This document shows, piece by piece, positions 11,603 to 48,097 of a DNA stretch of 48,867 nt. A program made the position numbers and the translations under genes. This stretch comes from Candidatus Liberimonas magnetica (lineage in GTDB: Bacteria; Elusimicrobiota; Endomicrobiia; Endomicrobiales; JAFGIL01): the NCBI GenBank assembly GCA_020523885.1, contig JAJAPY010000024.1, positions 1 to 48,867 on the forward strand. The letters are read 5' to 3'. Positions within the stretch are counted from its first letter, which is position 1. Each line of letters starts with the position of its first letter. The notes under the pieces were generated by a model, which did not search any database, had not been told where the DNA came from, and was given only the letters and a program-made list of their open reading frames with translations.

Positions 11603-11648
11603 ATTTTTACAAAGTTATTGTAGAATTTGCAATAAATAAGGAAGATTT

Positions 11649-12548
11649 ATGAAAAAGATAGGATTAGCATTAGGCGGGGGCGGAGCACGGGGGCTGGCGC
11701 ATATCGGGGTTCTGAAGGTTCTTGAAAACGCTAAAATCCCTATTCATTCCATTGCAGGGACATCTATGGGAGCTATACTCGGAGCATGTTATGCCGTTGA
11801 GCCTGATGCCTCCAAGCTTGAAAAACGCGTGAGGGATATACTTTCAGGCCCTTCCTTTACGAAACTGCAGATCGAGACCTTGAGGTCAGACTCAAAAGGA
11901 AAGCACAGTTTCATAGAAAGAGCAAAGTCACTTTTTATGAACGGGTATATACATTTAGTTGAAGAGACAAAACCTTCGTTCTTTACAATCGAAAGGCTTG
12001 AAGAAATAGTCTGCGGGCTTTTGCCTGATATAGATATATCCCGGACAAAAATACCTTTTGCCTGTGTGGTTACGGACCTTTCAAACGGGACAGCCAAAAC
12101 ATTTACCAAAGGCTCGCTAAGGGAGTGCGTAATAGCATCGTCTTCAATTGCCGGGGTTTTTCCTCCTGTAGTGATAGAAGGGGTCTACTATAATGACGGC
12201 GGCTATGCCGGCTCAGTGCCGGTAAATGCCGTGAAAGAACTGGGTGTTGATTATGTTATAGCCTGCGACGTAAAAAGTAAAGTGCTTAAATTTGACAAGT
12301 TTTCTAAAGCTAAAGACATTATTTCAAGGTCGGAATATATAACCGGTTCTATTTTAAACGAGTGTATAATTGCAGAAGCTGACCTGGTAATTTCTCCAGG
12401 TGTAAAACATATAAACTGGACAGGGTTCAATAAAATCGATTTTATGATAAAAAAAGGGGAACAGGCGGCATTGTTTAAAATAATAGAAATAAAGGCAGTT
12501 TTAGAGTATAAAAACATCATTGACCGTATAAAGAAGCTATTTTCGTAA
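11649..12548 (+). CDS. Patatin-like phospholipase (RssA/NTE family)
   Basis: The 299-residue protein starts with the anion-hole motif GLALGGGGARGLAHIGVL. The nucleophile elbow is GTSMG with Ser39, and the catalytic dyad Asp is Asp183 in YYNDGGYAGSVP. These are the complete active-site elements of bacterial patatin-like lipid acyl hydrolases. No signal peptide is visible, so it should act in the cytoplasm or at the inner face of the membrane. A GGAAG ribosome-binding site precedes the ATG. Substrate and physiological role cannot be read from the sequence. Confidence 0.92.
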   Translation: MKKIGLALGGGGARGLAHIGVLKVLENAKIPIHSIAGTSMGAILGACYAVEPDASKLEKRVRDILSGPSFTKLQIETLRSDSKGKHSFIERAKSLFMNGYIHLVEETKPSFFTIERLEEIVCGLLPDIDISRTKIPFACVVTDLSNGTAKTFTKGSLRECVIASSSIAGVFPPVVIEGVYYNDGGYAGSVPVNAVKELGVDYVIACDVKSKVLKFDKFSKAKDIISRSEYITGSILNECIIAEADLVISPGVKHINWTGFNKIDFMIKKGEQAALFKIIEIKAVLEYKNIIDRIKKLFS

Positions 12549-12581
12549 AATATTTAACGTCTCATCGAACCCCTCAAATTG

Positions 12582-24685: not shown

Positions 24686-26611
24686 ATGGCTATTGTAATA
24701 GATGATGCTAGGTTACCGGAGTCAAAAAAGCTAGTTGCAAAAGAAATAATGGCAAAATGGGCGAAAATAAATGATTTAAAACGCGTAGTGCGTTATAAAA
24801 AGCAGATTAATAAAATGTTAGAAGAAGTTGATTACGATGTTGCAAAAATAAACAGAGAAATCTTCAGTGCAGTACGCAAAAAAAATAATTGGGTTGAGCG
24901 CTATACTTGGCCGATAACTGCATGGAACTCATTCTGTCTTTTTGGAATACAGAACAGACCTGACCTGTTCTCAGAAGAAAATATGATTAAAAGAGTTAAA
25001 GCTTTGCCACAAGCCGTCTTGCCTCCAAGTATCTCAGATGAAATATCTAAAATAATAGATTCTCATTTCGTGTTTTCAACAGCGGCAAAGTTAAAAAGCA
25101 GATCACAAGAAGTAATAATGGCCAGTTTTAAGGTATTTTACAATTATGTTATTAAAGAAGAACCTGGTAGAACTATATCGAAACTGGCAGATTTTGTTGA
25201 AAGAGATGTTTTAAACTTTAGAAATTCTCTGATGCAGACTCAGTTAAGCCCCCTAACTGGTCAAAAAGTTGCATTCAATACTTTAATAGGGCATATATCA
25301 AACCTGAAACGTATCTATAAGATAGGTTACGATCAAGGAAAATTATCAGATGATATATTGAAGAATATAAAAGCAAAGTATCATAGGACAAACAAAAGAG
25401 AATTTTGCTTGAGTAAAGAGCAAGTTGAAAAACTTAGGGTTATAAATGCGGAAGAACTCAATAATAAATCCTTATTAGAGCAGTTCGAATTGGTCAGGAA
25501 TGCAACAATGCTTTCTGTACAATATGAGGCAGCCCTAAGAGCAGATGAGGTTGTTAATTTATGCTGGGAAAATCTACCTAAATATGAAAGAACGAGAACC
25601 AATATTGGTCCAGTTATTGTGATAGGCGCAAAACAAAGACCTGAAGACTTTGAAGACAGGGTATATATACTGTATGATCGACTTGATATTGATTTGGCAA
25701 AATGGAAGACTATTAGCGATGAATTTTGCAAGAAACACAATATGATCCCATCTGAAAAAAGCATTAATGGCAAGACATATCATCCAATATTCTTTTCTGC
25801 CAAAGGAAAAACGCTTGGTTCTGAGACATATATATCTTCAATATTTGCAAGTTTATTAAAAAAAGCAGGAATAATCTTGCCATTAGGATACAAGTCGCAT
25901 ATCATCAGGCACTCAAGAATTACTCATTGGATCGATGATGGTTATCCATTTGAAAAAGTCCATGAAAATGCCAGGCATAGTGATTTAAGTATGACGTGGC
26001 GGTATTTTCACAGCAATGCTCAGAAACGTATTGAGGCAGTTGAAAAAGTTGAGAAGCTTGATAAAGAAAGCAGAGAGCTGAGGATGTCCGTACTACCTCC
26101 CAAAGGAGCTCTTCGTTCTATGATAGAGCAGATATTTGGTTATCTTAAGAATAATAAAGATATTTTGAATACTGAAGAGTTGGATACAATTAATCTTTTG
26201 GAAATAGAAAAAAACATAGTTAAAAAATGTAACGATTATGTTGAAAGCAAGTTTTATTACACTTTCAGAGATGTTGTTGACAAATGGGGTCTTGGGAGAA
26301 CACAAACATATGAGAGGATAAATATACTTGCTAAAGAAGGATTAATCAAACCAATTCTTGATAAAAGTGGAACACAAAGGTATTCAAAAGAAGAAATCGA
26401 TTATTTAACTACATTAGTCGATTCAAGGAAAGCATCTATTGCTTTTGGCTATAAAGAAAAAACGCCTACAACTATTCCCGGCCTGGCAAACAAAGGTATA
26501 ATCAGGTCAACAAAAATAGGGAAGCTACATCACTTCGAACCAGGGGAATTAGTGGAGCATTTTTTTGACAAAAATGCTCCACATCCATCCTCAAAACCCA
26601 TCTGCCATTAA
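24686..26611 (+). CDS. Tyrosine recombinase with extra C-terminal DNA-binding-like region (second copy)
   Basis: This 641-residue protein has the same plan as the leftward one. Arg285 lies in AALRADEVV, the hairpin Lys in GAKQRPED, His405 and Arg408 in HIIRHSR, a second His in ARHSDLSM, and Tyr440 in WRYFH. The C-terminal extension repeats the WGLGRTQTYERINIL helix-turn-helix-like motif. It ends with an excisionase-like stretch (about 575-630) containing SIAFGYKEKTPTTIPGLA. An AAAGGAGG ribosome-binding site precedes the ATG. Sequence similarity to the first copy outside the motifs is modest, so the duplication is old or the two were acquired separately. Two such enzymes plus a serine recombinase in one element is unusual. 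Confidence 0.9.
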   Translation: MAIVIDDARLPESKKLVAKEIMAKWAKINDLKRVVRYKKQINKMLEEVDYDVAKINREIFSAVRKKNNWVERYTWPITAWNSFCLFGIQNRPDLFSEENMIKRVKALPQAVLPPSISDEISKIIDSHFVFSTAAKLKSRSQEVIMASFKVFYNYVIKEEPGRTISKLADFVERDVLNFRNSLMQTQLSPLTGQKVAFNTLIGHISNLKRIYKIGYDQGKLSDDILKNIKAKYHRTNKREFCLSKEQVEKLRVINAEELNNKSLLEQFELVRNATMLSVQYEAALRADEVVNLCWENLPKYERTRTNIGPVIVIGAKQRPEDFEDRVYILYDRLDIDLAKWKTISDEFCKKHNMIPSEKSINGKTYHPIFFSAKGKTLGSETYISSIFASLLKKAGIILPLGYKSHIIRHSRITHWIDDGYPFEKVHENARHSDLSMTWRYFHSNAQKRIEAVEKVEKLDKESRELRMSVLPPKGALRSMIEQIFGYLKNNKDILNTEELDTINLLEIEKNIVKKCNDYVESKFYYTFRDVVDKWGLGRTQTYERINILAKEGLIKPILDKSGTQRYSKEEIDYLTTLVDSRKASIAFGYKEKTPTTIPGLANKGIIRSTKIGKLHHFEPGELVEHFFDKNAPHPSSKPICH

Positions 26612-30612: not shown

Positions 30613-30664
30613 TTGACAAATTAAATTGGAGTATGTATAATCATAGTGTATAATAGGTGTATAA
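30613..30664 (+). promoter_or_regulatory. Consensus sigma-70 promoter with overlapping TGTATAA repeats (likely repressor operator)
   Basis: TTGACA (30613-30618), a 17-base spacer and TATAAT (30636-30641) make a perfect consensus promoter for the LexA-like gene. The heptamer tgtataa occurs at 30634, 30647 and 30658, covering the -10 box, the likely transcription start and the bases before the ATG. A repressor bound there would block transcription. I infer autoregulation by the LexA-like protein. No ordinary ribosome-binding site precedes the ATG, so the message may be leaderless or nearly so. Confidence 0.75.
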
Positions 30665-30666
30665 CT

Positions 30667-31290
30667 ATGAATAATATCGTTTTAACAGACAAAGAAAAGG
30701 AAGCACTTCGTTCAATACGTAATTTTTTAATGCATAACGGACGCATGCCGTCTGTTCGTGAGCTAATGAACTATATGGGGTATAAATATCCGCGTTCTGT
30801 TTCATTGCTCTTTGTGCAACTTACAAAAAAGGGTATTTTAAAAAGAAAACTTGATGGAAAAGTCATACTTGCAAATGATAATGATAAAAAAGAAGTTAAT
30901 GCGCAGACTGTAGATATTCCTTTGCTTGGTTCTGCTCCCTGTGGAACTCCAAACTTTGCCGAAGAAAACATTGAAGCAGTGTATCCAGTATCTGTTAGGC
31001 TTGCACCGCCCCCATATAAATATTTTCTTTTGAGGGCAAAAGGCGATTCAATGAATGCAAAAAGCATTAATGACGGCGATTTGCTTTTAATAAGGCAACA
31101 ACAAACTGCAAAAAATGGTGATTCGGTAGTGGCGCTTATTGACGGCGAATCAACAATAAAAGAATTTCATAAAACGGATAATGCAATTGTACTGAAACCG
31201 CGGTCTAAAAATGATAAATTTAAGGCAATAATTCTAACAAATGACTTTCAGGTTCAAGGAGTTGTTGTTACAGCAATCAGAGGTTTATAG
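30667..31290 (+). CDS. LexA/CI-type self-cleaving repressor
   Basis: The 207-residue protein has a winged-helix N-terminus like LexA (TDKEKEALRSIRNFLMHNGR, then MPSVRELMNYMGYKYPRSVS) and an S24 peptidase C-terminal domain. The self-cleavage site is Cys92-Gly93 in GSAPCGTP, a Cys-Gly bond like UmuD rather than the Ala-Gly of E. coli LexA. The catalytic dyad is Ser128 (KGDSMNA) and Lys165 (STIKEF). It should repress element genes and be inactivated after DNA damage through RecA. I choose ATG 30667 (MNNIVLTD) because the upstream codons overlap the promoter. It is flanked by the small-gene run and the cargo genes, so it probably controls excision or cargo. Confidence 0.92.
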   Translation: MNNIVLTDKEKEALRSIRNFLMHNGRMPSVRELMNYMGYKYPRSVSLLFVQLTKKGILKRKLDGKVILANDNDKKEVNAQTVDIPLLGSAPCGTPNFAEENIEAVYPVSVRLAPPPYKYFLLRAKGDSMNAKSINDGDLLLIRQQQTAKNGDSVVALIDGESTIKEFHKTDNAIVLKPRSKNDKFKAIILTNDFQVQGVVVTAIRGL

Positions 31291-31538: not shown

Positions 31539-31567
31539 TTGAGAAATAATATTTAAAGTTGTATAAT
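31539..31567 (+). promoter_or_regulatory. Candidate promoter of the methyltransferase operon
   Basis: TTGAGA (31539-31544), a 17-base spacer and TATAAT (31562-31567) lie 88 bases before the first methyltransferase gene and after the DUF2188 stop. The -10 box has the preceding context gtataat, as at the repressor promoter, so the same regulator might act here. That is inference. Confidence 0.6.
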
Positions 31568-31654: not shown

Positions 31655-33361
31655 ATGAACTTAAGGAAAATGCCATTATTAGAACAAAAACCAGACTCAA
31701 GTGCACTTCAGATTGATTTTGGTAGTATTCTGATTAATACGAAAAATGGTTCTGTTAAAGAGATGTTTGCGGAACATGTTGCTAACGGTCTCCCTCACGA
31801 CATCGTAGGTGCAAGTTTTGAGAAGTCGCTTGAGTATTTTGAAAGAAAAAATACCGGGCAGTACTATACCCCTAAAGAGATAGTCGAATATATTCTTTCG
31901 CAACTGGATATAAACGAGGATTCTAAAATATTAGACCCTTCCTGTGGTTGTGGATCCTTTATAATGGAAACATTTGAGTTATTGAAAAAGAAGTATGGAA
32001 TGCAGTCTATTAAGAATATTTATGGTGTTGATTTAAACGATAATGCAGCAAATGTGACTCGCCTTTGTTTGTTCCGTAATGTCGAATTTAATAAGAGATA
32101 TATTGATACAATAAAAGGCAATATTAAAACAGGTAATAGCATCGTTTCAAACCCGCTGATAGACAAGAATGCTTTCAATTGGGGATTGGAGTACAGAGAA
32201 GTCCTTGAATCTGGTGGCTTTGATGTAATTATCGGGAATCCCCCTTATGTTACTTTAAGTCAATCATCAGCATTTGATCCTGAAGAATCGTTTTACTCAA
32301 GCATAATCAATGGGCCTGTGAATGCTGCTACACTGATGATTTGCCGGTCCCTAGATCTTCTTAAACAGGGTGGTATATTGGCATTCTTACTGCCAAAATC
32401 TATTTTATATGTGAACTCATATTCAAAATTCAGGGAATATATATCGGACAATACTGAAATACAGCAAATTTATGATTTAGGTCCAAGATTTGAAGATGTT
32501 CGTGGAGAACAGTTTATTCTCATACTTAAAAAGAGCAAGCCGTCTATCATAAATAAGGTAAAAATTAGTGTTTTTGAAGCAAAGCTGAATGGTTTAAATA
32601 ACCAGCCAACAGCTTATGTCGAGCAAAATGAATTGAAGCACTCTGGCAGATTTTTAACGTTTGAAAATAAAGAATATTATTCTTTAGTAAGTAAACTGGC
32701 AAAAATTGGAGTTTCATTAGAGACTTATACGGATGGCAAGATATTTCGTGGTCTGCCAATAGGCGGGAACCATACTACAGTCCTTAATAAACCTAATTCC
32801 GAAAGAGTAATAAGAGGTAAAGATATTGCAAAATTCAGAATAAAGACCCTTCCTCTTATTGATAGCGCACAGCTTCAAAAACAAAGTGATAGTAAAATAC
32901 GAGAAATTAAGAAAAAGAAAATTGTTTTACAAAATATATTTTCAGCAGAAGCTGGTATTATTTCATCGTATGATGCTAAAGGGTTATTAACCCTTGATAC
33001 GGTAACCAATATTATCGTAAAATCTGATTTCGAAGGAAAATATATACTTGCGCTCCTTAATTCAAAGCTAATCAATTTTTATATTATGTACTATTTGTTC
33101 AATAAGTCAAGATTGACAATGCACGCAGATAAAGCTTATTTAGGGCTAATTCCAGTCATTAATGAACCTGATAAGCGCATAGTTAACTCCATGATATCTA
33201 TAATTGATGATATTGTGAATGGTATCGGGACAGTTGACCCTAAAGAAAAACAAAGAGATTTAGATAAACTAGTATATAGACTTTATTCGTTAAATAAGGA
33301 AGAAATAATATTAATAGAGTCAGCTGTTAATAAAATAATGTCTAGGAAAAGTATATGGTAA
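31655..33361 (+). CDS. N6-adenine DNA methyltransferase, Eco57I/type II gamma-like
   Basis: The 568-residue enzyme should methylate adenine N6 in a specific DNA sequence using S-adenosylmethionine. TGQYYTPKEIVEYIL (about 70-85) is motif X, DPSCGCGSF at 94-102 is the AdoMet-binding motif I, and NPPY at 195-198 is catalytic motif IV. The C-terminal half (about 330-540) looks like a target-recognition domain. No nuclease domain is visible. Its stop overlaps the start of the second methyltransferase by 7 bases. It opens a seven-gene block with both nuclease-like and signalling genes. An AAGG site precedes the ATG. Confidence 0.9.
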   Translation: MNLRKMPLLEQKPDSSALQIDFGSILINTKNGSVKEMFAEHVANGLPHDIVGASFEKSLEYFERKNTGQYYTPKEIVEYILSQLDINEDSKILDPSCGCGSFIMETFELLKKKYGMQSIKNIYGVDLNDNAANVTRLCLFRNVEFNKRYIDTIKGNIKTGNSIVSNPLIDKNAFNWGLEYREVLESGGFDVIIGNPPYVTLSQSSAFDPEESFYSSIINGPVNAATLMICRSLDLLKQGGILAFLLPKSILYVNSYSKFREYISDNTEIQQIYDLGPRFEDVRGEQFILILKKSKPSIINKVKISVFEAKLNGLNNQPTAYVEQNELKHSGRFLTFENKEYYSLVSKLAKIGVSLETYTDGKIFRGLPIGGNHTTVLNKPNSERVIRGKDIAKFRIKTLPLIDSAQLQKQSDSKIREIKKKKIVLQNIFSAEAGIISSYDAKGLLTLDTVTNIIVKSDFEGKYILALLNSKLINFYIMYYLFNKSRLTMHADKAYLGLIPVINEPDKRIVNSMISIIDDIVNGIGTVDPKEKQRDLDKLVYRLYSLNKEEIILIESAVNKIMSRKSIW

Positions 33362-34173
33362 ATAATGATAAGCGTTATAATGAATTAACCGGGAAGGAAT
33401 GGCTGCAATATTCCTTTAGTATTTGGAGAGATTTAAGAAAATCTGCCGAAGAAATTAAATTGAAGCATCCTGCGATGTTCCCTGAACAGCTCGCTTCCAG
33501 AGTAATAGACATTTATACTAAGAAAACAAACACTATTCTTGATCCTTTCATGGGAGCCGGAAGCACTGTATTGGCTTCGTATAAAAAAGGTAGAAAGGGT
33601 ATAGGGATAGAGTTGTCAAAAGAATATATCAGTATCGCTAAAAGCAGGCTGAAAGAAACAAAAAAGAAATTAAAAGATATAGCTACTATTGAGCCCGCAA
33701 TATTTCAAGATGATTCTAGAAATATGATGAAGCATCTCAAAAAAGAAAGTGTTGATTTATGCCTCACATCGCCACCTTACTGGGATATATTGCTGAGAAA
33801 CAGAACGGCAGATAGACAAGATATAAGAAAATACAGCGATTCTGATGTGGATCTAGGAAATATCAATGACTATGTAAGATTTTTAAATGAATTGAAAAAG
33901 GTATTTTCATCAGTATATGAAGTGTTAAAGCCAAATGGCCATTGTGTAATTGTTTTAATGGACATAAGAAAGAAAGACAAATTTTACCCTTTTCATTCGG
34001 ATATGGCAAAAATAATGGAAGAACTAGGTTTTGTTTATGAGGACCTTATTATCTGGGATAGACAACACGAATACAATAATATGAAACCATTAGGATACCC
34101 TTATGTATTCAGAGTCAATAAAGTTCATGAATATATTTTAATATTTAGAAAAAGGGTGGAATTAAATGGATAA
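33355..34173 (+). CDS. DNA methyltransferase of the N4-cytosine/N6-adenine (PF01555-like) class
   Basis: The 272-residue protein has motif I as LDPFMGAGST at residues 62-71 and catalytic motif IV as TSPPYWDIL near 137-145. Motif I precedes motif IV, a gamma-like order, while the SPPY sequence is like that of N4-cytosine or N6-adenine enzymes. The N-terminal LQYSFSIWRDLRKSAEEIKL and KHPAMFPEQLASRVI segments are typical of one subgroup. No large target-recognition domain is present, so specificity may come from a partner. It overlaps both the upstream methyltransferase (7 bases) and the downstream LAGLIDADG gene (8 bases), which strongly suggests coupled translation. Confidence 0.88.
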   Translation: MVNNDKRYNELTGKEWLQYSFSIWRDLRKSAEEIKLKHPAMFPEQLASRVIDIYTKKTNTILDPFMGAGSTVLASYKKGRKGIGIELSKEYISIAKSRLKETKKKLKDIATIEPAIFQDDSRNMMKHLKKESVDLCLTSPPYWDILLRNRTADRQDIRKYSDSDVDLGNINDYVRFLNELKKVFSSVYEVLKPNGHCVIVLMDIRKKDKFYPFHSDMAKIMEELGFVYEDLIIWDRQHEYNNMKPLGYPYVFRVNKVHEYILIFRKRVELNG

Positions 34174-35137
34174 TGCACAATTGGCTTATTTGCTTGGCAT
34201 GATAGCTGGAAAAGGAACTATAAGAAGAAATCCGAATGATACTGATGTTATCATTGAGATTCCTCATAAGAATATTATAAGCGAAGGGATGGATGCAGCT
34301 CTTTCAGTTAAAGCAAGTCTCATAGATATAAAGAATAATCTAGAACCTCTTATTGGTGCAACCTTGACTCCTAATCTAGAAAAAAATAAAACTACAATTA
34401 AATTCGTGAAAATAAACGAAGATTATCTAATTCGGGAAATTAATCGGCATTTTCAGAATTTTAACTCCTGTAAAGACTTCAGGATTCCTGAAGAAATATT
34501 TAATTCACCTAATGATATAAAAAAAGAATTTATGTTGGGGCTAGGAGATGTTACGGCGCATATAAGGAGTAGCAATGTTGCATTCAAAAGAAAAGATGCT
34601 CTTCATATCCATGGCTATAGGACATATATAGAGATTCCCGTCAACTGGTATATGGTGGTAGATATTGGCAATCTGCTTACTGATCTTAATGTTCCAATCC
34701 ATAATATAGATTGGGCACATCCTAATATGAGAGATTCAAATTTGAAACAGTATAATAAAGGTAACAAAATGTTCTGGTATAAAGAACACCAGATAAAAAT
34801 ATTTGCCGATGAATATGAACAAATAGGTTTTAAAATAGATCATAAAATGAAAGCATTGAAGACTTTAGCGGATAAAAACAGGGAAGAGTATGATAAAGAT
34901 TTAAAGGTTAAGATGAATGATACTGATTCTGATACGAGAAAAGAAAAATACAAAAATATGATTGGACACATTGACAGAATTCATCATAAGTATTATTGGG
35001 AAACCAGGGAAGTTAATAAGGAGCCGAAGCCGGTACATCCTATGGAATCAAGCGATAAGATCCCAGTCGAAATCAGAGGAAAACATTTTGATTCTTGGAA
35101 GGCTATTTCTGATGCTTTGGGTTATCGGAGAAAATAA
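34166..35137 (+). CDS. LAGLIDADG-fold protein with degenerate active-site residues
   Basis: The 323-residue protein has two LAGLIDADG-like helices: LAYLLGMIAGKGTI at residues 6-19 and KEFMLGLGDVTAHI at about 119-132. In classical LAGLIDADG nucleases each helix ends with a catalytic acid just before a Gly. Here the positions read GKG and DVT, so both acids appear replaced or displaced. The fold may therefore be used to recognise DNA rather than cut it. A basic C-terminal region (about 220-275) is also present. It overlaps the methyltransferase gene by 8 bases and is 1 base from the PD-(D/E)XK gene, so it belongs to this operon rather than to a mobile intron. It could still be the restriction enzyme. 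Confidence 0.7.
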   Translation: MDNAQLAYLLGMIAGKGTIRRNPNDTDVIIEIPHKNIISEGMDAALSVKASLIDIKNNLEPLIGATLTPNLEKNKTTIKFVKINEDYLIREINRHFQNFNSCKDFRIPEEIFNSPNDIKKEFMLGLGDVTAHIRSSNVAFKRKDALHIHGYRTYIEIPVNWYMVVDIGNLLTDLNVPIHNIDWAHPNMRDSNLKQYNKGNKMFWYKEHQIKIFADEYEQIGFKIDHKMKALKTLADKNREEYDKDLKVKMNDTDSDTRKEKYKNMIGHIDRIHHKYYWETREVNKEPKPVHPMESSDKIPVEIRGKHFDSWKAISDALGYRRK

Positions 35138-35138
35138 G

Positions 35139-35621
35139 ATGAGTAAACAAGAAGAACAGTTATATCCTGAAATTGAAGAATGGTTTAAAGGTTATCTTAA
35201 AGACAGATATCCTAAATATGAAATAATTACCACTTACAAGACATCTCGTATAACCCTGGATTCCTATTTAAAAACCCTTAAAATTGACTTGAATGTAGCC
35301 GTAGGACTGGCTATAAAAGTTGATATTGTTGCTGTTCTGAGGAAAGGCGAGGAAATAAAGTTAGCATTTGTAGAAGTAAAGGATGGCCCTCTTACACTTC
35401 CTGCTCTTGGCCAGTTGTGGGGTTATACTCAATTAATAAGTCCAGTTGAGTCGTTTTTGATTTCATCAAAATCATTAGGTAGACTTCCCCATCTTTTCAA
35501 TATATTAAAAAGAGAAGACCTTTTGGTATATGGTTTAAAGAAGGAACGAATAATGAAAATTGCAAAATGGGATACGACAAAAAAGTCTATTGATTATTTT
35601 TCTCTAATACCAAAAAAATAG
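35139..35621 (+). CDS. Small PD-(D/E)XK nuclease
   Basis: I take ATG 35139, one base after the LAGLIDADG stop, giving 160 residues; the longer upstream frame would overlap that gene heavily. The nuclease core is Asp62 (KVDIVAV), Glu79-x-Lys81 (FVEVKDG) and a helix with Gln92 (ALGQLWGY). This is the arrangement of PD-(D/E)XK endonucleases. No DNA-recognition domain is visible, so a partner, perhaps the LAGLIDADG protein, may direct it. It is followed after 24 bases by another gene of nuclease type (SfsA-like). It is the strongest candidate for the cutting subunit of this cluster. Confidence 0.8.
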   Translation: MSKQEEQLYPEIEEWFKGYLKDRYPKYEIITTYKTSRITLDSYLKTLKIDLNVAVGLAIKVDIVAVLRKGEEIKLAFVEVKDGPLTLPALGQLWGYTQLISPVESFLISSKSLGRLPHLFNILKREDLLVYGLKKERIMKIAKWDTTKKSIDYFSLIPKK

Positions 35622-35645
35622 GCACTCTAGAATGAGCATTAAGCC

Positions 35646-36383
35646 GTGAGTATATTTAGATTTAAAAAGCCTTTGATAGAAGGTGTCGTTATGGATCGAC
35701 CGAATCGTTTTGTAATGATGGTCGATGTAAATGGCCGAATAGAAAGATGTTTTTGTCCGTGCCCCACGAAAATTGGTAACCTAATATTCGAAAGCATCCC
35801 TTGTCTTCTGTCAAACAGTAATAGCTCTAACACTAAGTATACAGTAGAAGCTATATCCTTAAGTCCTGTAGATGTCACAAGGAAAAAATGGATAGGGATT
35901 AATCAAACAAAAATAAACAGTTACATTGAACATTTATTTCTTGCTGGAGAATTGAATAAAGTTGTGAAGAGAATAAAAAGTGTAAAGAGAGAATACGGTT
36001 TGAGTAACTCAAAAATAGATTTTCTTGTAAATACTTGTTTAGTAGAAGTAAAAACACCTTTAACTAATTTACCCTACAAATCTTATTTAAAATATCAACC
36101 CGACAAAGCATTTCATTCTTATCATAGAACTATAAAACACTATAACCTTCTTTCAAAACATATTGGAGAATTTTCTAGGGCAATCGTCTTGCATTGTTTT
36201 ATGTATAATGCAGAAAAATATAGAGACTTGTTTAATAACATAACGAAAAAAAGGATGCGGAATATAGTTAAAAAAGCCATCTTCAATGGTGTAGAAAATT
36301 GGCAAGTTAATCTTAAAATAGGTCCCAAAGGCGTAAGTCTCATAGATTGTTATAAATTAAATAATATATGTAATGGAATATAG
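35646..36383 (+). CDS. SfsA-like DNA/RNA nuclease-family protein
   Basis: The 245-residue protein matches SfsA over its length. It has an N-terminal OB-like part (LIEGVVMDRPNRFVMMVDVN), then CPCPTKIG in place of the usual CPNTGxM. A second match, WIGINQTKIN, stands for VGVNT. The nuclease core has Asp125 (SKIDFLV), Glu134-x-Lys136 (LVEVKTPL), all kept. SfsA proteins are normally lone housekeeping genes with nuclease activity reported and an unclear role. Here it is inside an operon with methyltransferases and overlaps the next gene by 11 bases. The start is GTG 35646; an in-frame ATG at 35691 is possible but would lose the conserved N-terminus. Confidence 0.82.
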   Translation: MSIFRFKKPLIEGVVMDRPNRFVMMVDVNGRIERCFCPCPTKIGNLIFESIPCLLSNSNSSNTKYTVEAISLSPVDVTRKKWIGINQTKINSYIEHLFLAGELNKVVKRIKSVKREYGLSNSKIDFLVNTCLVEVKTPLTNLPYKSYLKYQPDKAFHSYHRTIKHYNLLSKHIGEFSRAIVLHCFMYNAEKYRDLFNNITKKRMRNIVKKAIFNGVENWQVNLKIGPKGVSLIDCYKLNNICNGI

Positions 36384-36618
36384 AAAAATAACGAAAATAG
36401 AGTTTCTTCGAACTCGGGATTATGGAATTAAATCCTGTAGGTCTGTAGGAGTTGATGTCACAAAACAATATGATTATTATTTCTGGTGGAATTATGTAGA
36501 ATATTTTAGGACCTTAATAGATAAAACTAAAGTTGATAAACGAATATTAGACAGAGCCTTATGGCAGTATTCAAAAGAAAACCAGAAAAATAGCTACAGT
36601 CATGGTTTGAGGTCATAA
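36373..36618 (+). CDS. Small operon protein (81 aa), function unknown
   Basis: No family is recognised. The protein is rich in Tyr, Trp and basic residues (QYDYYFWWNYVEYFRTLIDK) and has a helical C-terminal part ending ENQKNSYSHGLRS. Its start lies inside the SfsA-like gene (11-base overlap) and its stop is 4 bases before the response-regulator gene. This layout suggests it is translated with them. A structural or adaptor role in the same complex is possible but is inference. Confidence 0.7.
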   Translation: MEYRKITKIEFLRTRDYGIKSCRSVGVDVTKQYDYYFWWNYVEYFRTLIDKTKVDKRILDRALWQYSKENQKNSYSHGLRS

Positions 36619-36622
36619 TTTT

Positions 36623-37000
36623 ATGAAAGGTTTTCTAATTGTTGATGATGAAACAGCAATGTTTCAATTATACAAAGGTATTATCAGGAAGGAATTTGAG
36701 GCCGTAGTTTTTACTGCTGAAAATAGTGAAGAAGCAGAAGATATGATAGATAAAATAAGCCCTGCAATAGATGTTATAATATCGGATATAAACAGACCAG
36801 GAAAGAGTGGTTTGGATTTTGCTCGCGATATTCATAGAAAATATCCAAAGATCAAGATATTCCTTGTATCCGGGAACCTGGCAGATGGCAGAAAGGAAAA
36901 GGCAGAAAAACTAATTAAGGCTGGTGTAATAAAAGGATTATTACAAAAACCTTTTGAAGTATCTAATTTTAGAAGTATGGTAAAATCATTTACTAAATAG
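36623..37000 (+). CDS. Stand-alone response-regulator receiver domain (CheY-like)
   Basis: The 125-residue protein is a single receiver domain. Acidic residues Asp8 and Asp9, phosphoacceptor Asp55 (IISDINRPG), Ser83 (FLVSGN) and Lys109 (LQKPF) are all in place, so it should be phosphorylated. No output domain and no histidine kinase gene are seen in the window. It starts 4 bases after the 81-residue gene and is the last gene of the methyltransferase-nuclease block. A receiver in such a block could couple a host kinase signal to nuclease control, which is inference. No terminator was found after it. Confidence 0.9.
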   Translation: MKGFLIVDDETAMFQLYKGIIRKEFEAVVFTAENSEEAEDMIDKISPAIDVIISDINRPGKSGLDFARDIHRKYPKIKIFLVSGNLADGRKEKAEKLIKAGVIKGLLQKPFEVSNFRSMVKSFTK

Positions 37001-37089: not shown

Positions 37090-37683
37090 TTGTTACCAGA
37101 TTTTCTTAAAATTAAAACTAAATTTACTGATGTTATGAATAAGTTTATGAAAACCCTGATAAATCAAGAGCCATTATTAAAGGGTGTTTCTAAAGCTAGA
37201 CATTTTGAAGGAGATATCATCTCGGGGGTTTCACAAGATGGGTATAAAGATGAATCAAAATATCAAGACTTCAAATCTGAATTTAAAATAGATAAGGATG
37301 ATTTAATAAAAAAAGGACCGAGATTGTTTATTGAAAATTGTGAAATTGTTGCTAAAGAGATGAGAGAAGCAGCTGCTAAGGCTATGATAGATAAAATAAA
37401 TCAGGTCACTGAAGAGACTGGGAACATCGTAGATGGAAAAGGTAAGAGATTTAGCTTTGAGTTATTTATGGAAATGTTAGATAAATATCCTATGGAATTT
37501 GATGAAAATAAAAACCCAATTATGCCAACAGTGATTGTTTCTCCAGCAATAGCATTAAGAGTGAAAGAAGAACTTCCTGTATGGGAAACTAACCCGGTGT
37601 ACAAAAATCAATTAGATAATCTAATAGAAAGAAAAAGGAAAGACTGGAATGATAGAGAGAGCTATAGAAAACTGGTTGACTAA
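37090..37683 (+). CDS. Partner protein of an Mrr-like nuclease (197 aa), function unknown
   Basis: The start is TTG 37090 with AAGGAG 6 bases upstream. The protein is mostly helical with a charged centre (KEMREAAAKAMIDKINQVTE) and a conserved-looking MPTVIVSPAIALRVKEELPV stretch near residue 150. No family is recognised and no catalytic motif is visible. Its end overlaps the start of the Mrr-like gene by 35 bases, so the two form a translationally coupled pair. A role as sensor, inhibitor or specificity partner of the nuclease is plausible. Confidence 0.7.
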   Translation: MLPDFLKIKTKFTDVMNKFMKTLINQEPLLKGVSKARHFEGDIISGVSQDGYKDESKYQDFKSEFKIDKDDLIKKGPRLFIENCEIVAKEMREAAAKAMIDKINQVTEETGNIVDGKGKRFSFELFMEMLDKYPMEFDENKNPIMPTVIVSPAIALRVKEELPVWETNPVYKNQLDNLIERKRKDWNDRESYRKLVD

Positions 37684-39265
37684 TACTAATGAACGCAATT
37701 ATCAAATTGCTTTCTGTCAGGTGCTAATGAATAAAGGCGAAAAGATAATTTATGTTTGCTCTCATGGACCAGCGGAGCAAGGCAAGGATATAATTAGTAT
37801 TGATAAAGAAGGTAATAGTAAAGCTTATCAGCTAAAGACGGGTGATATTAACTTAGCTGAGTGGAGAAAAATTAGAGGCGAAATCCAAGATTTAATAGAA
37901 CTATCTATAAGACACCCCTCTGTAGATAAAACTAAAATGCATAAATCAGTATTAGTTGCAAATGGAGATATAACTGCCGATGTTAGAGCCTATATAGATC
38001 AGTTAAATGATGACAATGTCAGAATGAATCGTAATTTTTCACCTTTGTCTATTGTTTGTAAAGATACGCTTTTAAAAGAGTTCATAGATGCTCATGGTAG
38101 ATTTATGCCAGTAGAATTAAAAGATATGCAAATGTTCTTGGAGATATATTTGCATAATGGTAAAGATTTTTTTCCTAAAGAAAAATATATAAATCTAGTA
38201 AATAATATGCTTTTTTCAAAAACATACAAACAAAAATCTGATTACTTTAACATAATATCTAGTAGTGTTATTATAACTTCTTATATTTTAAAGTCTTTTC
38301 AAGAGCAAAATAACTACTACGCCATGTTCGAAGCATGGGTATTGCTTGCAGGTAATATATTAAGATATGTGAAAAGAAACAATATTGACAAAGAATTATA
38401 TTTGGAAACATATGATTTGATAAAAGAAGAGGTTGAAAAGAACATTCAGCTTTTAGAAGAAGAAATTATTGCTAAAAAGGTATTTTTAGAAGGAAATCCA
38501 ATGGGGGATGGTTGGTGGGTATATAAAGCGAGAGCAACTATTGTATTGGGAACTATATCTGCTTTTGAAGTAAAAAACATAGAAAAAAATAAAGAATATA
38601 GAGTCCGACAGCAATTCGTTGATTTGGTTAAAGAGAATGTAAGTAATAAAGTTGTGTTTTATTGGGGCGAAAGTGCCTTTCCGTATTTTCTTAATATAAT
38701 TAATTTCCTTGAAGCCATTCAAGAAAAAGAATTAGCATTAAATCTTCTTATTGCATTGTTTAGCGATACATTAAAAATGAAAGAGTTCGAATACAAAGGG
38801 TTCCCAATGCCTAATCCATATTATACTGCTGAAGAATTATTGGAAGCACTATTAGGTATTTCTTTTGATCAGTTAGGAGAAGAAACATTTGTAGGGTCAT
38901 CATATGTGTTGAACTCATTAATAGAGATGCTTGCTAGAAGAAATCAAAGAAAAATTCTTGAAGAAAATTGGAAAAAAGTGTCATATATTCATTACGATGT
39001 GTTTGCTCCAAAGAAGTTTGAAGACATCTTTTTATGGAGAGCAGAGGAAGGAGAAAACCATTATGAATTTCCAAATATGACTCAAAGCTGGAAAGATCTT
39101 TACAAAGAAGCAAACAATTGCGAAAACGTGGATAATTTTTATAGAGAATATTCTGATTTAATTAGATATGCACTGATAACATATCCACATAGGATAAATA
39201 AATATGTTGTAAGATCGCTAGATATAGTGTCTTGCTTTGGAAAAAAGCTACATACAAATTTATAG
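37649..39265 (+). CDS. Mrr-like PD-(D/E)XK restriction-type protein with long C-terminal domain
   Basis: The first 70 residues contain the Mrr-type nuclease pattern, with Glu43/Asp47 in EQGKDIIS and Gln61-x-Lys63 in YQLKTGDI, a QxK variant of the core. The other 450 or so residues are helical and of unknown family, with motifs such as NPMGDGWWVYKARATI and FYWGESAFPYFLNII. The helical pattern suggests a repeat-like or sensor domain. The total of 538 residues is much longer than a plain Mrr. The overlap with the 197-residue gene indicates a two-gene system. It may cut modified or foreign DNA. After its stop lies a nuclease gene remnant. Confidence 0.7.
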   Translation: MIERAIENWLTNTNERNYQIAFCQVLMNKGEKIIYVCSHGPAEQGKDIISIDKEGNSKAYQLKTGDINLAEWRKIRGEIQDLIELSIRHPSVDKTKMHKSVLVANGDITADVRAYIDQLNDDNVRMNRNFSPLSIVCKDTLLKEFIDAHGRFMPVELKDMQMFLEIYLHNGKDFFPKEKYINLVNNMLFSKTYKQKSDYFNIISSSVIITSYILKSFQEQNNYYAMFEAWVLLAGNILRYVKRNNIDKELYLETYDLIKEEVEKNIQLLEEEIIAKKVFLEGNPMGDGWWVYKARATIVLGTISAFEVKNIEKNKEYRVRQQFVDLVKENVSNKVVFYWGESAFPYFLNIINFLEAIQEKELALNLLIALFSDTLKMKEFEYKGFPMPNPYYTAEELLEALLGISFDQLGEETFVGSSYVLNSLIEMLARRNQRKILEENWKKVSYIHYDVFAPKKFEDIFLWRAEEGENHYEFPNMTQSWKDLYKEANNCENVDNFYREYSDLIRYALITYPHRINKYVVRSLDIVSCFGKKLHTNL

Positions 39266-40048: not shown

Positions 40049-40102
40049 AAGTATTTGTTGGGTTGTAATTGTTTTGCAAAATTATACTAATTGGACCAAT
40101 GT

Positions 40103-40834
40103 ATGTATAAAAATCATCTTATTTATTCTTTTATTGATGGATCGTTTATGGATATTGCCGATAAAGATTATTTGGCGGCAAGAATATGTTATCGGTATGA
40201 TTTACCCCAAGAGTTTTTATGGTTATCTTTACAAGCTATAGAAAAATATATCAAAGCAATATTGCTATATAACGAACAAGAAACAAAAAGTATCGGACAT
40301 GATATATCTAAGGCTTATGATAAAATGAAATCTTTGAAGGAATTTAGTTTTGATATTCCTAAAGATGTAGAGTCATTTATTAGTTACTTAAATAGATATG
40401 GTTTAGATCGTTATTTTGAGAAGCCATATTTTTTATATGGAGAAGAATTATTGTCACTTGATAGAACTGTCTGGTTTATTAGGCGATATTGTGGTTTATT
40501 TAATTCTAAAATTAAAAAAATAGATGGAACAATGGTTGATGGTTTGTCTGCAAATTTAAAGAGAATTCAAAATCCTTATTATTTAAAACAACCAAATAAG
40601 TTTATTCATCATGGGTATTTAGGACATGTGTTAAATAACAAAAGATTAGAATTGAGGAAGCAACTCGTTTACAAAAATTTCTATTTTGGGACCTATAAAA
40701 GGAAGTTAATTAAAAATTACAAATTAAAGTCAGGTTCTGGCACACCAACTCATATTCATCATAAAGAAATATTTGATGAATTAAAAGCAAAAGTAAGGTT
40801 TTCAAAAGAAATAATAGATCATTTTAAGAATTAG
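40103..40834 (+). CDS. HEPN-domain-like protein
   Basis: I choose ATG 40103 (MYKNHLIYSF); the TTG four codons earlier is an alternative. The protein has a helical pattern like HEPN domains: DIADKDYLAARICYRYDLP, then LWLSLQAIEKYIKAILLY and GHDISKAYDKM. HEPN proteins are often ribonucleases with an R-x4-6-H motif, but I do not see this motif clearly, so it may be non-catalytic. The C-terminal half (about 150-243) is basic and unassigned, with PTHIHHKEIFDELKAK near the end. It pairs with the upstream membrane protein in a cassette flanked by direct repeats. Confidence 0.6.
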   Translation: MYKNHLIYSFIDGSFMDIADKDYLAARICYRYDLPQEFLWLSLQAIEKYIKAILLYNEQETKSIGHDISKAYDKMKSLKEFSFDIPKDVESFISYLNRYGLDRYFEKPYFLYGEELLSLDRTVWFIRRYCGLFNSKIKKIDGTMVDGLSANLKRIQNPYYLKQPNKFIHHGYLGHVLNNKRLELRKQLVYKNFYFGTYKRKLIKNYKLKSGSGTPTHIHHKEIFDELKAKVRFSKEIIDHFKN

Positions 40835-40862: not shown

Positions 40863-40886
40863 ATCAATTGTTTGAAATAAAACAGG
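40863..40886. repeat. Right 24-bp direct repeat of the cassette
   Basis: This copy matches 39439-39462 with one mismatch and lies 29 bases after the HEPN-like stop. It ends 22 bases before the right attachment core. Confidence 0.6.
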
Positions 40887-41793
40887 TTCTGATAGCGTCC
40901 CCTAGGGGACCCCAAACTAAACGTCGTACCGATTTTTTACCCAGTTTCTGACGATAATCGAGAGGTTCGAATCTCTCGATTATCGTTTTTACCCCTAAAT
41001 TAAGATTTTTGATGATTTCAAACGGTTCTTTTAATTTTATCGTCAGTAAATTATCCATAAGGGAGAGGTACGAAGCTAAAAAGGATACTACATACCGTTT
41101 CTCTTCATCAGAGCCGCTTAAAAACCTGTTTTTTGCCTCTTTTGCCATATTAAAAACCTCAATAGATTTATCCAGCCAGCTTTTGGCGCTCTTTCCATCA
41201 GTTCTTATAAGCTCTTCTAATCGTATCTTTTCATTCATCAACTCGTCTTTCTTTTTTACATATTCTTCTTCAGTGATCTCTTTGTTAATTCTCATGTTCA
41301 TCAGTGTATCTATTTTGGTGCTGCAGGCTGTAAAAGCCTTCCTATAGCCTTCCAATAACATTTCCTGGCTTTTAATATCTTCTGCATAGTCATTTTTGAG
41401 CTCTTCTATGGCCCAGTCATGGAAATCCTGGGGGATTTCTACGCTTTCAAGAACGGGTATAATTTGTTTTTCCAGTTCAGCAGCAAGTATGTATTTTTGT
41501 GAGCAGTTGGGATTTTTCATCTTTGTACAATGGTAGTATATATAACGATGAGTATTACCATTCTTTTGGCGTTTAATCCTGTTTTCTGCTGTTATCATAC
41601 AACCGCACTCGCCGCAACGAATAAGCTGTGTAAATGGGAAATAATGCTTCTTTACCATAGGTTTAAAGCGGCCGCTGAGTATTTTCTGAGCCCTGTCATA
41701 TTCAGTCCTTGTAATCATGGGTTCGTGCTTTCCTGTATAAAGTGTCCCGGCATAATAGAAATATCCGTAATAGAAAGGATTTCTGAATACTGC
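40864..41793 (-). pseudogene. N-terminally truncated large serine recombinase of an older element
   Basis: Homology with the 520-residue recombinase starts at AVFRNPFYYGYFYYAG and runs through the zinc-ribbon (RCGECGCMI, YYHCTKMKNPNC), coiled coil and tail. The first 220 or so residues, including the catalytic resolvase domain, are missing, and the open frame before it (from 41952) is repeat-derived. It cannot be an active recombinase. Joining its tail (RRLVWG) to the tRNA-His 3' end would give VWGG and a stop, exactly like the intact copy. It is therefore an earlier occupant of the same site, displaced by the newer element. Its present last codons, after the core, are read from the newer element's end. 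Confidence 0.85.
40897..40918. other. Right end of the element: 14-bp palindrome and attachment core (attR)
   Basis: gtcccctaggggac (40897-40910) is a perfect palindrome that overlaps the core accccaaact (40909-40918), the same 10 bases as at the tRNA-His 3' end. Left of the core is newer-element sequence; right of it is the 3' end of an older recombinase gene. This is the expected outer junction of the 21-kb element. The 9-mer acctgtttt 20 bases inside the left core appears inverted 21 bases inside the right core. Confidence 0.65.
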
Positions 41794-41892
41794 ATCCAGG
41801 CGGGGCAAACAGATGACCTGATTTATGTCGTCGTTGACACAAGTACAATGCAATGCGAGAGAGTTAGTATCTGATGAAGTCTTATGTGACAT

Positions 41893-41971
41893 TTTTAGGG
41901 ACAAAATACTGTTTTTAGGGACATTCCGTTTTAGGGACATTTTTAGGGACATTTTTTACTTTTTAGGGACA
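41893..41971. repeat. Five short direct repeats TTTTAGGGACA
   Basis: The 11-mer occurs at 41893, 41913, 41929, 41941 and 41961, with spacings of 20, 16, 12 and 20 bases. On the other strand the units read ATGTCCCTAAAA and form the repetitive start of the truncated recombinase frame. The last copy encodes the C-terminus of the DUF4062 protein. A related tgtccctaaa lies near 48289. Confidence 0.85.
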
Positions 41972-43449
41972 TCGAGGTTAGACTGGAAATATGCACCTTT
42001 CTTGTATCCAATTTTCTTAATGTAGCCGGTATCTAATAAGCCTTTGATATCCCTTTTTGCAGTTTTATCACTAATATTTTTAAACAGTTCGGTATATTTA
42101 TGAATTGTAAAAGTATGGCGCTCATTAACCATCAGCCTTAAAGCCTCTATTTGCCGCTCATTTAATCCTAGTTCCTTTAAATCTGTCTGGCGCTCTTTCG
42201 GAATGCTTGGCACAAGATCTAAAATATTATCACCGGGACCAAAGAATCTGGATACAAAGAAGTCGCCTTCTTCTTCCAATACAGGCTTACTAAGCCCATG
42301 TTCTTTCATTAAGCGGTTCATTTTGCCGATACCAGTGCCGAACCGTTCCATATCAAGAGTTTCATGAAAAATATGGCATATATTTTCATTTCTTGTAGCA
42401 TGATGGCCCTCAAGCCTTTTTATGTTTAATCCGGGCAAAAGCCCGCCGGGATTGCTTACTTCAACCCTGTCATCAAATATAGATATCATTATCGGCGTTC
42501 CCATGCGGGTATAGTCCCGGTGCGCGATAGCGTTTATTACAGCTTCACGTATCGCTGCGTAGGGATATTCAGGAATATCAACCCGTTTAAATTCAACAAT
42601 TTTATTAGCAAGCCTGGTATTTCTTAAAAAGAATCTTTCAACCTGATCAAGCATCTTATATATGGGCCCGGTTATTTCTGCGGAATCCAAAAAATAGCTG
42701 CGGGTCGATCCTTTGAACCGGGCGATTCTAATCTCACTTTGAGGGATAAAGTCGGTAGGATTTTTGCCAAAAAACAGTAAAGCCGTGTTTGTAGGAACCA
42801 GTTTCTTGCCAGATTCAGATACGACCTTAAGTGTATTAACAAGAAAATCCTTTATTTCTATCTTTGGTACTGCAACTTTAAGCTTTATAGCCCTGGTTTC
42901 AAGAAAGTCCTTAACCTGTTTTTCGTCAATATTGCTGTATGATGCTTCAATATTTATTCTTTTATCAAAAGATAGGAGATTTATCATTCCTTTTTCATCC
43001 ATGCAGGAAATCAGGCTGTTAAGCACTTGTGTTCTTAGATCTTCAACAATATCAAAACGCTTGTAAATAGATACTTCCCGGGCAGATTTAATAAATTTCT
43101 GGATATCCTTGTCCTTAATGGAATCATTTTTTCCTTTGATATAGATAAGTGTATCGCCGTTAGGATTCTTTTTTAAAAAATGTTTGAATTCTCTTTCAGT
43201 AGCCGATAAGCCATCTGCTCCTTTGATGCCGTATTCTTTGCCGAGAACACCTATGTAAATATCACTGTTGGCTACTTCTTTCAAATAAGTTGAAGTAGGC
43301 GGTTTTCCCGTAGCAGGAAGGTCTTCAAACAAAAATACATCAAAGCAGTTTCTTAAAGAAGAGTTGTTGAGAATTACATCTTTTACAGCAAATCTTTCTT
43401 CCCTAAGTTCTTTCTGATTGGCGCTGATAAAAATTCGTTGTTTCTTCAT
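41956..43449 (-). CDS. DUF4062-HATPase-wHTH fusion, putative sensor/regulator
   Basis: The 497-residue protein starts with a DUF4062 domain (KQRIFISANQKELREERFAV; later GLSATEREFKHFL). The middle carries the RecG-like/HATPase_c_4 pattern: YPYAAIREAVINAIAHRDYT, then FDDRVEVSNPGGLLPG and FGTGIGKMNRLM. A winged helix (about 425-490, KTAKRDIKGLLDTGYIKKIG) ends it. In related regulators the N-terminal domain is usually AlbA_2; here DUF4062 takes its place. It could sense a signal by ATP binding and regulate transcription, or act in defence. The C-terminus is encoded by one of the TTTTAGGGACA repeats. It is transcribed away from the type IIG gene. Confidence 0.85.
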   Translation of the reverse strand: MKKQRIFISANQKELREERFAVKDVILNNSSLRNCFDVFLFEDLPATGKPPTSTYLKEVANSDIYIGVLGKEYGIKGADGLSATEREFKHFLKKNPNGDTLIYIKGKNDSIKDKDIQKFIKSAREVSIYKRFDIVEDLRTQVLNSLISCMDEKGMINLLSFDKRINIEASYSNIDEKQVKDFLETRAIKLKVAVPKIEIKDFLVNTLKVVSESGKKLVPTNTALLFFGKNPTDFIPQSEIRIARFKGSTRSYFLDSAEITGPIYKMLDQVERFFLRNTRLANKIVEFKRVDIPEYPYAAIREAVINAIAHRDYTRMGTPIMISIFDDRVEVSNPGGLLPGLNIKRLEGHHATRNENICHIFHETLDMERFGTGIGKMNRLMKEHGLSKPVLEEEGDFFVSRFFGPGDNILDLVPSIPKERQTDLKELGLNERQIEALRLMVNERHTFTIHKYTELFKNISDKTAKRDIKGLLDTGYIKKIGYKKGAYFQSNLDVPKK

Positions 43450-47139: not shown

Positions 47140-47149
47140 GGAACATAAA

Positions 47150-48097
47150 ATGTGTGATAAAAGGGAATTTATAAATAATTTAAATGAAACAGGTAAATCT
47201 GTGGGTTCAGTAATTCGAGAAAAATTGCCAAAAATATTGAAATTTATTCAAAAACTATCTGAATACAATAAAAATAATTGTTACGAAGAAATTACTCTAA
47301 ATACATGGGAAGATGTTGAGAATAAAATTATAGAAATCAAATCTGACCATAATCAAAACCATGGCGTAATATTTAGAGGACAATCTGATAGTAGATGGAA
47401 TCTGGAAAGTTCCTTGGAGAGGTTTGGAATAAAAAATTGTTCGATAAATAAATACAGTGAATTTATTAATAGTTTTTATGAAAAAATATATAAAGAACCT
47501 TTATGTGTGCAGTGTCCGAAAAAACTAGATTTTATTGATCATCAAAAACTTATCGAAGCAGGCGACATTCCTTTAAACGATTATATGGTCTATTTAAGAC
47601 ATTACGGTTTTCCATCTCCTTTACTGGATTGGAGTGAAGATAAGGATGTTGCAGCTTTTTTTGCATTTGCGACACCTGAACGTGAAGGAGTTAAATATTC
47701 GTCAATATTCGTTTATTATCATTTTAGTGCTCAGCTTGTGGGTGATTCTCAACCAGACTTTGTTTTAAAATCATCAAAAAATAGATTGATAGAACGAGAT
47801 AAAATACAAAAAACATGTTTTACAGTTGCCTATAAAAATAATCGTAATTTAAAGACAGCAGAGTATGTCCCATTTATGGATATATTAAATAAAGAAACTG
47901 AAAGTCAAGACCATGGCAGTTATAAAATTATGAATAAACCAAAAATTGTCAAGATAAAGATACCGAGAACTGAAAAATATAAAATTCTAACAATAGTTAA
48001 CAAAAGAAATATTAATTATTATTCTTTATTTAAATCTGAAGAAGCATTTCTCATGAATATGTGGTACAAAAACAGACAGTCAGATAGCATTTTGTAA
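47150..48097 (+). CDS. FRG-domain protein
   Basis: The 315-residue protein has the FRG domain in its middle: GVIFRGQSDSRWNLESSLER (about 65-84), then YMVYLRHYGFPSPLLDWSED and VAAFFAFATPE. FRG domains are named after the Phe-Arg-Gly motif, occur often near restriction genes and phages, and are of unproven activity. The gene begins 10 bases after the type IIG stop, with GAGGA upstream, and is probably in the same transcript. Its base composition is high in A+T, like the type IIG recognition domain, so the two segments may have arrived together. An accessory defence or anti-phage role is inferred from context only. Confidence 0.88.
   Translation: MCDKREFINNLNETGKSVGSVIREKLPKILKFIQKLSEYNKNNCYEEITLNTWEDVENKIIEIKSDHNQNHGVIFRGQSDSRWNLESSLERFGIKNCSINKYSEFINSFYEKIYKEPLCVQCPKKLDFIDHQKLIEAGDIPLNDYMVYLRHYGFPSPLLDWSEDKDVAAFFAFATPEREGVKYSSIFVYYHFSAQLVGDSQPDFVLKSSKNRLIERDKIQKTCFTVAYKNNRNLKTAEYVPFMDILNKETESQDHGSYKIMNKPKIVKIKIPRTEKYKILTIVNKRNINYYSLFKSEEAFLMNMWYKNRQSDSIL

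Follow-up and report, generated by a model that had tools for sequence, protein, structure and literature searches.

The DNA analysed here (the window) is a contig of 48,867 nucleotides from Candidatus Liberimonas magnetica, in which we examined a run of closely packed genes that includes a predicted restriction-modification (R-M) system. Seven open reading frames (ORFs) lie on the forward strand between positions 31655 and 37000, where an earlier, sequence-only reading had placed them, and the spacings that it listed proved exact, with neighbouring genes overlapping by 7, 8 or 11 bases or standing 1, 24 or 4 bases apart. The first gene, M1 (31655–33361, 568 aa), specifies an Eco57I-type (gamma-class, NPPY) adenine DNA methyltransferase with a TaqI-like C-terminal specificity domain (Pfam Eco57I, E-value 8.8e-29; N6_Mtase, 2.3e-29; TaqI_C, 1.6e-14), and the second, M2 (33355–34173, 272 aa), a permuted N6/N4 methyltransferase with the motif SPPYW that probably acts on cytosine-N4; it matches N6_N4_Mtase (1.2e-36) in two circularly permuted pieces, with the C-terminal half of the profile first. 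These are followed by LAG (34166–35137, 323 aa), a LAGLIDADG-fold protein that has lost its catalytic acids and is a predicted DNA-recognition subunit, and by PDX (35139–35621, 160 aa), a small PD-(D/E)XK nuclease predicted to be the cleavage subunit, for which we took the ATG at 35139 as the start, the mechanical ORF beginning farther upstream. The remaining three genes encode an SfsA-like protein, an 81-aa protein and a CheY-like receiver. Pfam and NCBIfam agreed with the family names previously given to M1, M2, the SfsA-like protein and the receiver.

In order to learn how widely this arrangement is shared, we searched for relatives of LAG. A class-wide genome search returned four further genomes of the same order, whilst protein searches added two Lactiplantibacillus plantarum plasmids and two Heliusvirales phages. 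Using an alignment of LAG, we found 150 relatives in 84,980 species genomes, of which the best 80 were kept, and four more on viral contigs, where a single-sequence search had given no match. Together these yielded 87 non-redundant loci (the window and 86 related loci) from Bacillota, Bacteroidota, Thermoplasmatota archaea and other phyla, as well as plasmids and phages. LAG and PDX stand side by side in the same order at all 87, mostly overlapping by a few bases, and this candidate endonuclease pair sits behind one or more methyltransferase genes at every locus, as is looked for in a Type II R-M system. A reverse search with PDX gave no new places: the 6 genomes, 4 viral contigs, 2 phages and 2 plasmids that it recovered were those already reached with LAG, and no orphan LAG or PDX was seen in either direction. 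Thus, rather than being spread over unrelated neighbourhoods, the two proteins co-occur everywhere that they were found. In the plasmid and phage relatives the methyltransferases come first and a PDX homologue follows directly after LAG; the cassettes stand alone on small plasmids and phages, and both genes are labelled 'hypothetical protein' in the records examined. As the first four genes recur in the same order across phyla, their arrangement in the window is more than chance, and the conserved unit is made up of the two methyltransferases, LAG and PDX. Additionally, the Heliusvirales phage NatCom_40364 and Ruminococcus torques ATCC 27756 share a nearly identical cassette, with PDX 100 % identical, indicating that the phage carries this R-M system. 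Other carriers include Streptococcus suis (L072, L077 and L080) and Anaerotignum neopropionicum (L048).

The nature of LAG was revealed by its predicted structure. It has no significant match among Pfam, NCBIfam or PADLOC profiles (chance-level only in PADLOC-DB 2.0.0, which gave scattered weak matches in single members when run over the family), and PDB sequence-profile searches with both LAG and PDX returned no relevant match; only fold comparison was successful. For an AlphaFold2 model of LAG based on 67 relatives (predicted local distance difference test score, pLDDT, 92.1; predicted template modelling score 0.91), all 48 PDB fold matches at E ≤ 0.001 were LAGLIDADG homing endonucleases, inteins or maturases. 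The protein is built of two LAGLIDADG helices and two pseudo-symmetric domains, and no nuclease domain beyond this fold was recognised in the model. The catalytic acids of the LAGLIDADG family sit at the ends of these helices, which in LAG fall at residues 16 and 130. Position 16 is asparagine in 82 members and lysine in five (K16 in the window), position 130 is threonine in 87 of 87 (T130 in the window), and a distant relative, at locus G338, has arginine and threonine at the two sites. Because both acids are replaced in all members, LAG is very probably unable to cut DNA by the usual LAGLIDADG mechanism.

PDX likewise has no significant match in Pfam or NCBIfam and matched 0 families of PADLOC-DB 2.0.0. 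Its residues D62, E79, K81 and Q92 are invariant in all 60 sequences compared, forming a complete PD-(D/E)XK site (D62, E79-x-K81, Q92). The best fold match of the predicted model (pLDDT 95.8) was the Type IIS enzyme PaqCI (E 3.3e-3, probability 0.99), followed by other restriction enzymes; the E-value is weak, and the match is consistent with the active-site motif. At about 160 residues, PDX would have little room for a recognition domain. The LAGLIDADG and PD-(D/E)XK identities assigned in the sequence-only reading therefore hold, with the fold decisive for LAG, and fold and invariant motif together supporting PDX.

The methyltransferases ahead of LAG follow a regular pattern. Exactly one adenine-type and one cytosine-type enzyme precede it at 82 of the 86 related loci, in three combinations: EcoRI-type with C5 (38 loci), Eco57I-type with N6/N4 (36) and C5 with Eco57I-type (8). 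The other four loci show a single methyltransferase, and in these LAG lies < 1.9 kb from the start of the locus; wherever the locus is not truncated by the end of a contig, both enzymes are there. At Eco57I-type loci a homologue of M1 occupies the same place, and the SPPYW motif of M2 is kept in 38 of 38 homologues. Although the closest solved relatives of the N6/N4 enzyme include DpnA-like adenine as well as N4-cytosine enzymes, this motif suggests that it forms N4-methylcytosine rather than N6-methyladenine. At the distant locus G338 a D12-type adenine methyltransferase is fused to an N6/N4 enzyme. We had considered the ∼700-aa methylase of plasmids and phages to be a double C5 enzyme, and rejected this as it proved to be an EcoRI-type adenine methyltransferase fused to a C5 enzyme; such a fusion forms one chain of 700 aa in a protein of an L. 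plantarum plasmid (L012), and lengths and motifs suggest the same for many others. One adenine-type and one cytosine-type enzyme per complete locus is the pattern expected for an asymmetric site that needs a different base methylated on each strand, and enzymes that recognise asymmetric sites usually have a methyltransferase for each strand (PMC4081073). The two methyltransferases would thus act on opposite strands of one such site.

A number of further features were observed around these genes. A helix-turn-helix domain is fused to the EcoRI-type methyltransferase of locus L026 (3588–4823), which suggests self-regulation of the R-M operon, and at L031 a further C5 methyltransferase-like ORF of 536 aa (11086–12696) lies ∼3 kb downstream of an EcoRI-type/C5 cassette. 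Approximately half of the Eco57I-type loci have small proteins (about 111–164 aa, sometimes two in a row) between the cytosine methyltransferase and LAG, examples being L026 (5923–6996), L050 (6168–6982), L032 (6654–6989) and L110; the short forms have no Pfam match, and an alternative form of 357 aa contains a NOV_C domain.

On a tree of LAG, the methyltransferase set changed at least 5 times, against a mean of 33 for shuffled sets, with the adenine–cytosine pairing preserved despite these changes. The C5 enzymes are 63–72 % identical to one another with either an Eco57I-type or an EcoRI-type partner (leaving out the C5 column of L045, at 24–38 %, which is a slicing artefact), Eco57I-type enzymes are 39–50 % identical between most C5-partnered and N4-partnered loci (30–37 % to the window and L020), and N6/N4 enzymes are 48–57 % identical between D12-partnered and Eco57I-partnered loci. 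This chain of identities across partner types, together with the five set changes on the tree, suggests that unrelated enzymes have independently taken the place of each methyltransferase, with the site retained. Moreover, in the second domain of LAG, on strands predicted to face the DNA, residues R152, Y154, E156, H185, N187, R189, D190, E207-H208-Q209 and K211 are invariant or nearly so, and their conservation spans all methyltransferase types; the EcoRI-type/C5 and Eco57I-type/N4 loci are told apart by only two positions, both conservative (A/G184 and I/V210). Such conservation supports a shared target, and the sequence recognised may well be the same, or nearly the same, across the family.

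The three genes that follow PDX have a different standing. The SfsA-like protein (35646–36383, + strand, 245 aa, GTG start), of a family that joins an OB domain to a PD-(D/E)XK domain, scores above the Pfam cut-offs for SfsA (2.3e-10) and SfsA_N (3.1e-7) and below the NCBIfam equivalog cut-off; for SfsA itself, both the OB fold and the PD-(D/E)XK nuclease have been predicted in earlier work (PMC1189080). Its family is located directly downstream of PDX in the window and at L047, L048 and L086, whereas at L050, L052 and L069 (L050 and L052 being near copies) it lies upstream of M1 in divergent orientation. All seven of these loci are of the Eco57I type, and the gene is absent from most others; as such, it is an optional accessory nuclease, neither part of the core nor a random neighbour, and its suggested association with the cassette holds to this extent. 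Two of the closest relatives of this protein in the phylum are found near N6/N4-type methyltransferase sequence (L123 and L124), with L123 combining a LexA-like start and an N6/N4-methyltransferase match in one ORF close to the nearest SfsA-like relative, whilst a plasmid relative is not near such sequence. The 81-aa protein (36373–36618, + strand) has no homologue at other loci of the family, nor in 335 other genomes of the phylum. The single-domain CheY-like receiver (36623–37000, + strand; Response_reg, 2.6e-17) is one of 31 receiver matches in its own genome and likewise has no counterpart at the other loci. Both appear to be co-directional passengers outside the conserved system. We therefore rejected a seven-gene cassette as the unit, as these two proteins never recur and most loci are without SfsA. 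The earlier proposal of an R-M system with recognition, modification and cutting split between proteins thus keeps its four-gene core, conserved throughout the family, and loses both its seven-part extent and its phospho-signal input, for which the lack of any recurrence of the 81-aa protein and the receiver leaves no support.

Taken together, we consider it likely that the genes between 31655 and 35621 form a Type II R-M system for an asymmetric site, in which LAG reads, PDX cuts and the methyltransferases protect. This proposal starts from features computed directly, namely the gene order, the LAG–PDX pairing, the adenine–cytosine pairing, the LAGLIDADG fold, the loss of its acids and the intact PDX motif. 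The adenine-specific and cytosine-specific methyltransferases would each protect one strand of the site. LAG, with both catalytic acids lost, would bind the site and hold PDX, which, having no recognition domain of its own, would be recruited in this way to cut, and methylation of both strands would block cutting. We also lean, with less assurance, towards a dead LAGLIDADG specificity subunit acting at one conserved site that is guarded by repeatedly replaced, non-homologous adenine–cytosine pairs.

Several known systems share parts of this design. Type IIS enzymes such as FokI and PaqCI also have asymmetric sites and separate modules for recognition and PD-(D/E)XK cutting, PaqCI being the best fold match of PDX; here, however, each module is a protein of its own, and recognition would fall to a LAGLIDADG fold. 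WhiA is a bacterial DNA-binding protein that contains a LAGLIDADG domain without nuclease activity (PMC11701221), a precedent for a LAGLIDADG protein that still binds DNA but no longer cuts it; unlike LAG, it is a transcription factor that carries a helix-turn-helix domain and has no link to a nuclease or to methyltransferases. Dedicated specificity subunits are known from Type I and Type IIB systems (BsaXI), where a single complex relies on its S subunit for both methylation and cutting and the fold is unrelated to that of LAG; in contrast to such systems, the methyltransferases here belong to families that bring specificity regions of their own (TaqI_C, C5). MhoVII, which has two fused methyltransferases, was considered as the same system and rejected, since both of its methyltransferases are adenine-type; its endonuclease has been likened to AlwI-family enzymes, with no mention of LAGLIDADG (PMC12898733). 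The catalytic classes of Type II enzymes are mainly PD-(D/E)XK, HNH and GIY-YIG (PMC4081073), the word LAGLIDADG is absent from a 2014 review of Type II systems, and in 5.39 million open papers we found no description of a LAGLIDADG recognition subunit of a restriction enzyme. No named system matched this set of genes, in line with the sequence-only reading, although an earlier description or naming in REBASE or subscription journals is possible. We view the cassette as a real, conserved and apparently undescribed architecture, which we place within Type II R-M and do not rank as a new kind of defence.

The division of labour between LAG and PDX could also be understood differently. The closest parallel is with the Type IIT or two-subunit Type IIS enzymes BtsI, BsrDI and BspD6I, in which a large subunit recognises the site and cuts one strand, a small nonspecific subunit cuts the other, and two methyltransferases are present (PMC4081073, PMC2909958). 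The subunits are unequal in both cases, the small nuclease has no recognition domain, and the methyltransferases, separate or fused, are (or, in the cassette, would be) allotted one to each strand of an asymmetric site. By analogy, LAG would both recognise the site and nick one strand through a non-canonical active site, leaving the other to PDX, and its many invariant polar residues (D128, D182, H185, E207, H208 and K211) would be in keeping with this. The known large subunits, however, bear a catalytic domain of their own, whereas LAG is a LAGLIDADG fold in whose model no such domain or active site is visible, and both LAGLIDADG acids are lost in every member; we consider such a heterodimer unlikely. 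That LAG might cut one strand through an unrecognised site does nonetheless weigh against the preferred reading, as do three other points: the motif and the helix ends, rather than an atomic superposition, served to locate its catalytic positions; by sequence alone its LAGLIDADG identity is sub-threshold (Pfam Hom_end in 16 of 67 members, best E 0.004); and the cytosine assignment of M2 depends on the SPPY motif.

As LAGLIDADG proteins are typically homing endonucleases, LAG and PDX might instead be a pair of homing or otherwise selfish endonucleases that move together with methylase genes and have no restriction role. LAG does share the fold of I-DmoI, PI-PfuI and the bI3 maturase, but unlike them it has had its acids replaced and is encoded behind methyltransferases rather than within an intron or intein. 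Neither introns nor inteins nor interrupted genes were found, the pair holds a fixed order behind two complete methyltransferases at every complete locus, and the cassettes stand alone on plasmids and phages, all of which makes this explanation very improbable. We give as little credence to a seven-subunit system in which the SfsA-like protein, the 81-aa protein and the receiver are working parts and restriction is under phospho-signal control: all seven genes are indeed tightly spaced and SfsA-like genes occur at six other loci, but SfsA is missing from most loci and the other two genes are confined to this one. The preferred reading thus remains that of a four-gene Type II system with a reader and a cutter.

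The region surrounding the cassette contains other genes of possible relevance. To its left lies a tyrosine integrase (24686–26611; Phage_integrase, 5e-12), and to its right a truncated serine recombinase (40864–41952), which retains a Zn ribbon and a portion of the Recombinase domain but has no resolvase domain; framed by these two, the region is likely to be a mobile or defence island. A LexA-like repressor (30646–31290; LexA_DNA_bind, Peptidase_S24) is encoded a short distance before the cassette. The best sigma-70-like promoter match before M1 (TTGAGA-17-TATAAT, 11/12; 31539–31567, + strand) is weak, the number of such sites in the region being no higher than in shuffled sequence, and promoter and terminator scans of the region were not usefully above chance. 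Downstream of the operon, a 538-aa protein (37649–39265) without a Pfam match has an N-terminus that looks PD-(D/E)XK-like by eye (QGKDII...YQLK) and is a possible nuclease. Farther along are a HEPN-domain protein (40091–40834; 5.5e-6), HEPN proteins often being RNase-type in defence loci, and a DUF4062 protein with a RecG-C-like HATPase_c_4 domain (41956–43449), a candidate defence or regulatory gene. Finally, a second R-M-like locus (44182–48097) comprises a 985-aa Eco57I/TaqI_C protein of Type IIG appearance and then a 315-aa ORF.

If the proposed reading is true, a homing endonuclease has been domesticated into immunity, and a restriction enzyme has been divided into a reader and a cutter, which would be a new construction of a restriction enzyme. 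The family would also represent an experiment made by nature, one system having exchanged its methyltransferases for unrelated families with the target unchanged. About 150 loci would thereby gain a function, and researchers a naturally split nuclease to study and to engineer.

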